Below are positions 5 through 57,871 of a stretch of 64,000 bases of DNA, piece after piece. The DNA lies in NCBI GenBank assembly GCA_027486835.1, contig JAIXOJ010000044.1, positions 1-64,000 of the forward strand. Reading direction: 5' to 3'. The notes beneath the pieces were generated by a model, which saw nothing but the letters and a program-made list of their open reading frames with translations, was not told the DNA's origin and made no database searches. The first letter of the stretch is position 1. Each line of letters starts with the position of its first letter. The translations under genes and the position numbers were made by a program. This DNA is from Chitinophagaceae bacterium. Lineage in GTDB: Bacteria > Bacteroidota > Bacteroidia > Chitinophagales > Chitinophagaceae.

Positions 5-88
5 AACTCTGTTTGGCTTCTAAACAACTCTGTTTGGCTTCTAAACAACTCTGTTTGGCTTCTAAACAACTCTGTTTGGCTTCTAAAC
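5..88. repeat. 21-bp tandem array A (at least 4 units, cut by window edge)
   Basis: Four identical 21-bp units begin at 5, 26, 47 and 68. Each contains the core CTGTTTGGCTTCTAAAC. The bases at 1-4 look like the end of a further unit, so the array probably continues to the left of the window. On the plus strand one frame reads as a heptapeptide (N-S-V-W-L-L-N) and ends at a TAA at 95-97. No start codon is visible. Perfect identity of the units suggests recent amplification or homogenisation. Confidence 0.9.
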
Positions 89-157
89 AATTTCTAAAAA
101 CTAATTAATAACCGCTCCATATTGATTAGAGGGATAAAAAAGTTGTTGCTGGGCTAA

Positions 158-212
158 ATTGATTTATTGCATTAAGGCGATTGGGAGATTTGCAGACGAT
201 GTGACGTAGTCG
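158..212 (+). repeat. Dispersed element, left copy
   Basis: This stretch contains GGGAGATTTGCA followed by GATGTGACG and AGTCG. The same words recur in the same order at 1499-1556, with roughly three quarters of positions matching by eye. The two copies are direct repeats around the gene at 463-1419. Nothing else is recognised in 89-462 apart from this element. Confidence 0.55.
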
Positions 213-462
213 AGAGACTAACTTCAGAGCAAATACTCTTTTCGGTATCAACCTGCTGCCAAGTCTCAACCAAATCTGAAGAAATTCAAATGTTGATATC
301 ACCTCTGTTTTCTAAAGCTTTATTGTATTTACTCCAATTGCGTACTTTATATTTATCGTTGCTCAAAATAAAAAGAAGCTTTTTAGTACTTCTAACATTA
401 TTGAACGTTTGGATTACCTTATTTATTGCCTATTCACGAAACAAAGCCCTTTTAAATTAATT

Positions 463-54786: not shown

Positions 54787-55968
54787 CTATTTCTTTTTTT
54801 GACTACGCATGCATGCATTCCAATAGGCAAAAAAACTAGGGTACCTACCCGTAACTTCAGGAAACAACCAACTGCGCATCTCTTCATTGCCCGAATAGTG
54901 CAATGCGGTGGGATGTTCCTTGTAATAACATTTCATGGGAGAGTCGTAGTTTTTTACCAATGCTTCAAAGCTGCCTACATACACTTGGATTTGTGGAATG
55001 GTATCCTTGGCTAATTGTACAATAAATTCAATCACCTTACTACTTACCGGATACTTTTCAAAATGATCAGGCTCTAACAGCAGCACCCTGTTTCCCATCG
55101 GCCATTCTTGGTGCCATTGTGGGTCTAGCTGATATGAATTATAGACCAACAAAGGTTGATTGGGGTCTAGTGTTATTGGTTTGGCCGCTGGCAAGGTGGT
55201 GTGTAAAGAAAGATTAACCGTTGCAGACAATTCCTTTGGTACAGCCATTTGCGGCAAAACAGCATAGTCTTGGTCTAAATAACTGCCCCTCTGTTTGCTG
55301 AAAGTGTATTTGTTGATGTTTTCTTGATTGGCAAAATATTTCTTACTACTAAAGCTACCCGCCACCCACTGCCAGCTTAATGCATTACTAGCCCAATCGC
55401 CGTCGAGTAAATGGTAGTACATCCATTTAGCGGGCAGCAACCAATGGCTTTTTGCCACGTTGCAGGCTATCATGGCGGTGTACATCCTACAGTGGTTGTG
55501 CATGTATCCTGTGTCGTAAAGATGTTGTATGGCGGTGTCAATGGCTTCAATTTGGGTGGACGCATTAACGAAAGCATCTGGCATTTGATGATGCATCACA
55601 TTACCCTGTGGTTGCTTGAGATCGGTAAAAATACCCTCGCCTACCGATTGCCAAACCCGCTGAAAATATTCGCGCCATGCCAATTCCTGTAATAACTTTT
55701 CCGATTCCTGCCAAGAATAGTTTTGTAAAACCACCGTTTTTACTTGCGCTAAACTCACAACACCTCTTGCAATGTAAGGTGACAAATAGGTAACAGCACC
55801 ATTGATAAAATTGCGGGAGTAGGCATATTTCACTGGATTAATGGCATCAATGCGCGCCAATATGTCTGTGTAATTCGTGGGCCAATCTAACGCTTGAGCA
55901 ACATTCGTTTCTGGCAAATCAAACAACATTGGGGCGTCGGGTGCATGGTGTAGTTTTTTCTTTTTCAT
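54787..55968 (-). CDS. Photolyase/cryptochrome-like FAD-binding protein with an unusual domain order
   Basis: I chose ATG 55968 (393 residues), as the lysine-rich MKKKKLHHAPDAPMLFDLPE fits the family; 23 more codons are open upstream. Residues about 35-250 form the helical FAD domain of photolyases, with ELAWREYFQRVW, HNHCRMYTAMIACN and DGDWASNALSWQWVAGSFSS. The usual N-terminal alpha/beta antenna domain is absent at the front. Instead an alpha/beta-looking part follows at about 270-380 (GNRVLLLEPDHFEKYP, QIQVYVGSFEAL). It may bind FAD and act in light-dependent repair or sensing, but the activity cannot be read from sequence. Confidence 0.8.
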   Translation of the reverse strand: MKKKKLHHAPDAPMLFDLPETNVAQALDWPTNYTDILARIDAINPVKYAYSRNFINGAVTYLSPYIARGVVSLAQVKTVVLQNYSWQESEKLLQELAWREYFQRVWQSVGEGIFTDLKQPQGNVMHHQMPDAFVNASTQIEAIDTAIQHLYDTGYMHNHCRMYTAMIACNVAKSHWLLPAKWMYYHLLDGDWASNALSWQWVAGSFSSKKYFANQENINKYTFSKQRGSYLDQDYAVLPQMAVPKELSATVNLSLHTTLPAAKPITLDPNQPLLVYNSYQLDPQWHQEWPMGNRVLLLEPDHFEKYPVSSKVIEFIVQLAKDTIPQIQVYVGSFEALVKNYDSPMKCYYKEHPTALHYSGNEEMRSWLFPEVTGRYPSFFAYWNACMRSQKKK

Positions 55969-56236
55969 GATGGTCTTTTTTTTAAACAGCGATTGGCTTA
56001 CAGAACTAATGAAAGCTTGAACGATTTGTTTTGGCATGAATTCATACCAATTTCATCCTCACCCTCCAATTTCATTACAACGCTGGCTCAAAGAACAATT
56101 CCCCAGCAACGAATGTTCTACTTCTCCATTTCATTTAATAACCAATTCAAAAAAAGAATGCTAAAAAGCTTTCAAAACCTGAAGAGCTGGCATTCTAAAA
56201 ACGATTCACTAAAGCATATTAAAATAACATAACAAC

Positions 56237-56953
56237 ATGGAAATTATCAAGGGAAAAAATGTGTTAGTAGTAGGGGCTACAGGCGGCATAGGCAGTAAAG
56301 TAGCCAAGCTTTTGGGCGGCAGTGGTGCCAATGTTTTTGTTACAGGCAGAGACGCCAGTAAGCTTGCGGCCATGCAACAAGAAAATGGAATAGCGGCAGA
56401 ACGTTGTTTTGTCATGGATATTACCCAAGAAGCCAGCGTACAAAAAACAGTGGAAGCCGTGCTCGCCATTACGGGGCAAATAGATATCGTGATTAATGCT
56501 GCAGGTATTGGCATAATCAAAACGATGGATACACTTAGTACCGAAGAATTTATCCGAACCCTGCAAACCAATTTAATTGGTTCTTTTTATCTGGTAAAAG
56601 CCATTTTACCCAGTATGAAGTTGGTAAAAAAGGGATTGATTATCAATATACCAGGCGTGCTGGGCAAAGTACCCATGGCGGGCGCAGCGGCATATAGTGC
56701 TAGCAAATACGGTTTAGTGGGCATGATGCAAAGTATTCGTGAAGAGATTAAACGCACCGATATCAGGATTACCAATCTATTTCTCGGAGGAGTGGATAGT
56801 CCGTTTTGGGATAATATCGACCTAAGGGTACAGCGCGACAAAATGGTAATGACCGATGAGGCTGCAAAAGCCATCTGGTTTTTGTGCCAACAGCCTGTAA
56901 GCGGTGTAGTGAGCGAAATGGTGCTACAACCCTTTAACCACCAAGCGATTTAG
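56237..56953 (+). CDS. Short-chain dehydrogenase/reductase (SDR) family protein
   Basis: The 238-residue product has the classical SDR cofactor motif GATGGIGS at 13-20, N-A-A-G at 87-90 and the Y-S-A-S-K catalytic pair Tyr153 and Lys157. The segment 13 residues before the Tyr reads N-I-P-G, where classical SDRs have N-I-S-S, so the catalytic Ser position is Gly140. The cofactor and substrate cannot be told. It is divergent from the photolyase-like gene, with 268 bp between them. Confidence 0.88.
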   Translation: MEIIKGKNVLVVGATGGIGSKVAKLLGGSGANVFVTGRDASKLAAMQQENGIAAERCFVMDITQEASVQKTVEAVLAITGQIDIVINAAGIGIIKTMDTLSTEEFIRTLQTNLIGSFYLVKAILPSMKLVKKGLIINIPGVLGKVPMAGAAAYSASKYGLVGMMQSIREEIKRTDIRITNLFLGGVDSPFWDNIDLRVQRDKMVMTDEAAKAIWFLCQQPVSGVVSEMVLQPFNHQAI

Positions 56954-57271: not shown

Positions 57272-57871
57272 ATGATAACAGATATCAATCAACTAGACCT
57301 GAATAAGCAATACTCCTACGCTGATTACCTTACTTGGCAGTTTGAAGAGCGGGTGGAACTGATTAGGGGTTGGATTTGGAAAATGAGTCCTGCACCATTA
57401 CGCATACACCAAATGGTTTTTGGGGTATTGTTTAACGAAGTTTATAACTACTTAAATGGTAAACCTTGCCATGCCTATGCCGCTCCATTTGATGTACGCC
57501 TCACCAACAAAAGAAAAAGCAAGGAGGACAAAAATGTTATTTCGGTAGTTCAACCAGACATTTCCGTCATCTGCGATTCAAGCAAACTGGACGATAAAGG
57601 CTGCATCGGTGCACCCGATTGGATAATTGAAATTTTAAGTCCTGGCAATTCAAAAAAGGAGATGAGGGAAAAATTTTCCCTTTACGAAGAAAACGGGGTT
57701 CGCGAATATTGGGTCGTATCCACTGCCCAACAATATCTACAAGTGTTCGATTTAATCAACGAAAAATTCGTGTATCGCGCCACCTACCTCAACGACGACC
57801 AAATTCCAGTAGGCATCTTCGAAGGATTTTCTATTGATGGGGGAAAATTGTTTGCAGGGATGAATGAATAA
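57272..57871 (+). CDS. Uma2 family endonuclease-like protein
   Basis: The 199-residue product has the Uma2 (DUF820) layout: YADYLTWQFEERVELIRG at the start, the PD motif in VQPDISVICD near 94, and the E-I-L-S-P-G-N-S-K-K strand near 120. It also has LYEENGVREYWVV near 139. These match a PD-(D/E)xK nuclease fold. The biological role of the family is not established. It stands alone, in a gene-poor area. Confidence 0.9.
   Translation: MITDINQLDLNKQYSYADYLTWQFEERVELIRGWIWKMSPAPLRIHQMVFGVLFNEVYNYLNGKPCHAYAAPFDVRLTNKRKSKEDKNVISVVQPDISVICDSSKLDDKGCIGAPDWIIEILSPGNSKKEMREKFSLYEENGVREYWVVSTAQQYLQVFDLINEKFVYRATYLNDDQIPVGIFEGFSIDGGKLFAGMNE

Follow-up and report, generated by a model that had tools for sequence, protein, structure and literature searches.

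A single gene in the stretch of DNA analysed here (64,000 nucleotides from a Chitinophagaceae bacterium, called the window below) probably encodes an inverted-order flavin photolyase, of the NewPHL / SPL kind, and most likely a cyclobutane pyrimidine dimer (CPD) photolyase with an antenna-derived cap. The inverted layout has already been published, for the NewPHL / SPL proteins and for Phr6, and the Bacteroidota protein joins that kind; a literature search aimed mostly at the inverted-order kind in general returned no publication title on the Bacteroidota clade, though one may exist. The gene is a single open reading frame on the minus strand (54787-55968) of 393 amino acids. Its start codon is uncertain: in most of the best 80 of 339 relatives the alignment starts only at about residue 20-32, and M14 is therefore a possible start.

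The FAD domain stands first. The sequence-only reading had this domain begin near residue 35 with an alpha/beta part after it, and both Pfam and the predicted structure bear that order out, with the FAD domain at about residues 24-249 and the alpha/beta part at about 266-393. The whole-chain model has a mean pLDDT of 93.3 and a pTM of 0.90, and in structure comparison its helical FAD/catalytic domain (residues 24-249; 55222..55899, minus strand) gives a Z of 16.8 to 7ykn, aligned over residues 14..249, and of 16.3 to 1dnp_A, aligned over 24..243. Pfam finds FAD_binding_7 (PF03441) at residues 93-224 (55297..55692, minus strand; E 1.5e-20), covering only profile positions 2-136 of 203, and the one further Pfam match is at chance level (E 0.074). 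NCBIfam matches are to photolyase and cryptochrome models only, all below their own cut-offs, and the relatives in the PDB found by sequence are photolyases and cryptochromes aligned through the FAD domain. Neither Pfam nor the predicted structure places an antenna domain before the FAD domain; the N-terminal tail (residues 1-23; 55900..55968, minus strand) is mostly of low confidence, with a pLDDT <50 at residues 1-17 and 21-23.

This order is stable in the family. A scan of GTDB contigs gave 354 matching stretches, of which 339 are relatives by tblastn; the best 80 of the 339 were kept, at 51-60% identity, and in each the match runs on through the C-terminal part to end at query residue 383-393. 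Since the match reaches so far in these 80, and the C-terminal part has invariant residues, the layout is neither chance nor truncation: relatives with the same order, suggested as a check, do exist, and the truncated fusion that had been named as an alternative is contradicted by a C-terminal part kept in the best 80 of 339, with eight invariant residues in a 50-row alignment. By record title, 78 of the best 80 are Bacteroidota, one is Pyrinomonadaceae and one an “uncultured bacterium,” and such bins can be mixed. A sample of the phylum gave a match at E<=1e-25 in 32 of 296 genomes: 18, with the window's own and a split gene pair in genome G415 among them, match at E 1e-45 or better, one (G243) holds a family fragment, and in 13, whose frames measure 438-513 amino acids, the match (E of about 1e-25 to 1e-28) is confined to the FAD domain. 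In a set of 59 close genomes that counts the window's own, matches at E<=1e-30 occur in 19, and two of these matches are C-terminal fragments. None of the 32 IMG/VR stretches that fit the two patterns used was confirmed as a relative, and none of 10 matching phage records covers over 80% of the query; distant relatives in a plasmid collection are named “FAD-binding domain-containing protein.”

Two alignments were made, of the window protein with 49 (A1) and with 60 (A2) of the 80 loci, together with a wide set of 87 rows (the window, 75 of the 80 loci and 11 others) from which five over-extended loci were left out; in four of these (L008, L014, L063, L067) the open frame is of ordinary length, and in L059 there is a single longer one. 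The tree took in 8 of 30 class I loci, 6 of 30 DPRP loci and 14 Bacteroidota relatives, its rows trimmed by a rough rule that leaves some C-terminal residues in several of them; the inverted-order proteins do not form one branch in it, and holding their 25 rows together is not rejected (p-AU 0.233).

The C-terminal alpha/beta domain (residues 266-393; 54790..55173, minus strand; delimited by the model and the alignments) is antenna-like and ends in a conserved SFFxYWKK-type helix. Folded alone from a 61-row alignment, residues 262-393 give a mean pLDDT of 91.7, and D282, W285, P300, K350, H352, S378, F379 and W383 are the invariant residues of the 50-row alignment. A comparison of this part with the photolyase antenna, proposed in the sequence-only reading, divided by method. 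In VIA-align the top match is the antenna of the S. elongatus (6-4) photolyase (8ijy residues 2-127; 97 aligned, rmsd 2.5, and a Z of 7.6 that lies within the range reachable by models without kinship), the top three rows are photolyases aligned through their N-terminal domains, and photolyases or cryptochromes fill 32 of the 50 rows shown; a single protein (M. mazei class II) accounts for 16 of these 32, and in many of the 32 the alignment extends to the FAD domain, with an rmsd of 4-6. Foldseek against the PDB, on the other hand, gives no match at E<=0.001 and ranks other alpha/beta proteins first, all of them weak. Pfam finds no match at E<=10 in residues 262-393, hence no PF00875, and direct hhalign comparisons of the C-terminal profile are not significant against the classical antenna (43/150 shuffles as good) or against alphaproteobacterial C-termini (29/150). 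A comparison with universal stress proteins was likewise not significant, but counts for little, its control alignment being poor, with mixed full-length rows and a shuffle sd of 31.9. Nor did a particular resemblance to the DPRP antenna, also considered, hold up, 145/150 shuffles being as good.

Because a Z of this size can occur without kinship, intermediate sequences were sought, and they came from Deinococcus and from one genome of the window's own phylum. In Deinococcus plasmid records the C-terminal unit of FAD-first proteins matches PF00875 in two of three fused proteins (E 7e-4 and 1e-3), and in Deinococcus QL22 the antenna-like unit is a separate overlapping open reading frame (E 2.3e-4; L087 2887-3660 and 3657-4178); all three matches fall under the curated cut-off. 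In genome G415 the photolyase on the reverse strand of L194 is also split, into a Fe-S type FAD open reading frame (1933-2736, 268 amino acids) followed by an overlapping antenna-like one in another frame that contains VLVWIHADSLSVADP; the split is the same as in QL22 and in the published phr4/phr5. Relative to the FAD domain, the Deinococcus and G415 units are placed as the Bacteroidota C-terminal part is, behind it. In profile comparison the five units match 33 classical antenna domains with probability 96.3 and E 1.8e-9, and the Bacteroidota C-terminal profile matches the five units over 104 colinear columns with E 8e-4 and probability 24, its score of 27.4 standing against column shuffles with a mean of 11.6 and a maximum of 19.0 (0/150 as good). 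This comparison was made three times and was strong only at the third, when enlarged by the G415 unit; with the four Deinococcus units alone it had given E 0.074, and then 0.026, or 0.004 in the reverse direction.

Through these Deinococcus and split-pair intermediates the C-terminal part can be tied, with moderate confidence and at the level of sequence profiles, to the antenna family. Of the two explanations first offered for the layout, a circular permutation or a fusion with an unrelated domain, the former is favoured by the VIA-align antenna match and by the PF00875-like units of same-order relatives, though the direct comparison with the classical antenna lends it nothing; it is favoured as the move of a whole domain, because the order inside the C-terminal domain is normal (colinear). 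We thus take this part, again with moderate confidence from model and profiles, to be a shortened antenna-type domain moved as a whole. The fusion of an unrelated small alpha/beta domain, whose antenna likeness would be no more than a common Rossmann-like layout, is improbable but still deserves weight: universal stress proteins also score in VIA-align (1q77, Z 6.7), Foldseek alone would put other proteins first, and neither Pfam nor direct profile comparison with the classical or DPRP antenna speaks for kinship. Against it stand the photolyase N-terminal domains in the top three VIA-align rows and the link through the Deinococcus and G415 units, which no shuffle equalled and which sit equally behind a FAD domain.

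In the FAD domain the residues by which class I photolyases hold the CPD are kept. With E. coli photolyase numbered without its initiator methionine, alignment makes E95 and W98 (55675..55686) the equivalents of E274 and W277, N158 and M162 (55483..55497) those of N341 and M345, W176 (55441..55443) that of W359, and W199 and W201 (55366..55374) those of W382 and W384, all on the minus strand; D189, D191 and N195 correspond to D372, D374 and N378. In class I photolyases E274 and W277 serve CPD binding, W382 adjoins the FAD and W384 stacks on the CPD. Among the inverted-order rows W277, N341, M345 and W384 are kept in 25/25 and E274 in 24/25, whereas DPRP rows (7/7) carry Q, W, H, L and F or Y at the five CPD sites, so that four of the five differ. 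An Asn near the FAD is described as conserved in NewPHL and other classes in the available part of one report (PMC12083526).

The tryptophan chain is shorter than usual. All three triad residues are present in 11/11 class I rows; in the inverted-order rows W382 is kept in 25/25 and W359 in 24/25 (one Tyr), and W306 in 0/25 (one gap), its site in the window protein being His126, within a variable stretch of the alignment. By this alignment the electron chain of the window protein is a dyad, W199 with W176 as its second member. The four Fe-S cysteine columns are all Cys in 5/5 Deinococcus/G415 rows and complete in 0/20 Bacteroidota (the window included) and alphaproteobacterial rows, and the PF04244 N-terminal domain and the DPRP active-site letters are absent from the window protein.

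By analogy with class I photolyases, the N-terminal helical domain would bind FAD, and blue or UV-A light would excite the reduced cofactor, which would pass an electron to a CPD held by E95, W98, N158, M162 and W201 and so split the dimer; FAD may then be re-reduced by light through W199 and W176. The C-terminal domain would be a shortened antenna descendant that now follows the catalytic one, and its final helix probably packs on the FAD domain. By comparison with the characterised NewPHLs, single-stranded DNA is probably favoured as the substrate.

That the window protein is instead a light sensor, cryptochrome-like and without repair activity, seems to us unlikely. The missing third Trp of the usual triad would fit such a role, but the residues for CPD contact and catalysis are conserved throughout the clade, another photolyase gene adjoins in most of the best 80 relatives, and the D. 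shibae NewPHL is called a photolyase in the available text of PMC8948257 in spite of “containing a mere Trp dyad.” A second family of photolyase homologues, found in the same clusters (17/80 loci) and in the window's genome (contig C173; L082 655-2121), is another matter: in the two rows examined E274 is replaced by R, N341 by F and W384 by M, and the W382 site lacks a Trp, and because of these altered sites that family may be a sensor and not a repair enzyme.

The gene neighbourhood joins the short photolyase to a second one. A DPRP (PF04244) gene, which from its name we take to be of the Fe-S (6-4) type, lies nearby on the same strand in 58 of the best 80 of 339 loci, many of which end at contig ends; where the contig extends for 4 kb or more to each side it is present in 37/45 loci. 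As 30 of 99 sampled genomes have DPRP, each as a single gene, adjacency by chance would be rare. Also among the best 80 of 339, TIGR03643/DUF2805 occurs in 36/80 loci, the SDR family of the window's neighbour in 27/80 and a further photolyase homologue in 17/80. Several of the nearest loci (for example L001, L002, L004-L007 and L010-L013) carry, in this order, a divergent SDR gene, DPRP and the short photolyase, and in L008 (3546-6167) and L014 (3516-6161) the DPRP and short-photolyase genes stand in one frame with a single stop codon between them. TIGR03643/DUF2805 is a small protein of unknown function, often encoded close to the short photolyase (for example at L071 4717-5010), and its placement suggests a role in light response or photorepair.

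In the window the arrangement differs. The divergent gene next to the photolyase is the SDR gene (56237..56953, plus strand), of the family that flanks the DPRP and short-photolyase pair in relatives; no credible DPRP remnant is present between the two divergent genes (55901-56300), and the one DPRP gene found in the window's genome is on another contig. In four congeners (G001, G002, G004, G006) DPRP adjoins the short-photolyase gene, and a fifth (G011) has a distant copy with no DPRP within its 7 kb contig. Since the SDR gene adjoins the photolyase without DPRP here, while four congeners keep DPRP beside it, the pair seems to have come apart in the window lineage. A Uma2 (PF05685) family gene lies near the SDR gene (57272-57871).

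The linkage to DPRP might be read to mean that the window protein is itself a (6-4) photolyase, a role that has been suggested for the Fe-S inverted-order Phr4/Phr6 (PMC9426592, in the text available). We think this very improbable, as the five sites read E/W/N/M/W in the clade against Q/W/H/L/F-or-Y in the DPRP rows, and the Fe-S cysteines on which the Phr4/Phr6 suggestion is based are absent from the clade. A decaying or truncated class I gene, to which the partial PF03441 coverage (2-136 of 203) might point, is hardly credible given matches through the C-terminus in the best 80 of 339, invariant C-terminal residues and a separate class I photolyase gene in the same genome.

An inverted-order CPD photolyase thus remains our preferred reading, and several described proteins resemble it. 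The NewPHLs of inverted topology from Dinoroseobacter shibae and Methylobacterium mesophilicum (Emmerich et al., 2020, as presented in the available parts of PMC13274461 and PMC8948257) share with it the FAD domain first, a second domain last and a Trp dyad, and are reported to be CPD photolyases; the likeness to these named proteins is by description, the profile comparison with Bacteroidota C-termini having been made with NewPHL-like alphaproteobacterial sequences. The short photolyase-like (SPL) proteins (Xu et al., 2021, via the text available in PMC9649867 and PMC9178010) are also of the inverted kind, described as having no N-terminal alpha/beta domain and a FAD domain like that of class I/III CPD photolyases; they are described with a Fe-S cluster (PMC9649867), whereas the window protein has no Fe-S cysteines. 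According to the available portion of PMC9426592, marine picocyanobacteria have a Phr6 with FAD first and antenna last and a Phr4/Phr5 pair; both are like the window protein in this order of FAD domain and antenna-type domain, but have retained the Fe-S cysteines and a DNA photolyase domain that can still be recognised, neither of which was found in it. The Prochlorococcus Phr7 “Z-domain” protein of the same source also has FAD first and a short atypical photolyase domain last, and is without Fe-S cysteines; it belongs to another phylum than the window protein and is likened to it by description only. The class I CPD photolyase PhrB of E. coli shares the FAD domain and the five CPD residues, and differs in its N-terminal antenna domain and full Trp triad, the window protein having neither.

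How the inverted order arose is more speculative. Split FAD and antenna gene pairs are found in Deinococcus QL22 and genome G415, and split phr4/phr5 genes are described for marine Synechococcus in the available text of PMC9426592. It is conceivable, though we hold it doubtful, that two-domain photolyases arose more than once, split Fe-S FAD and antenna genes having fused catalytic-first in the inverted kind and, independently, antenna-first in class I; the Bacteroidota proteins would then be a fused branch in which the Fe-S cluster was lost and the antenna was worn down to a cap.

A conserved Bacteroidota family can now be assigned a likely mechanism, and the findings point to an antenna domain that has changed position as the source of the inverted-order cap. 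Now that split forms can be set beside fused ones, and Fe-S forms beside Fe-S-free ones, the succession of steps by which photolyases combined their two domains becomes testable. Finally, the short photolyase being linked to a (6-4)-type gene, it would seem that in many Bacteroidota two repair enzymes go together, one for each of the main UV lesions.
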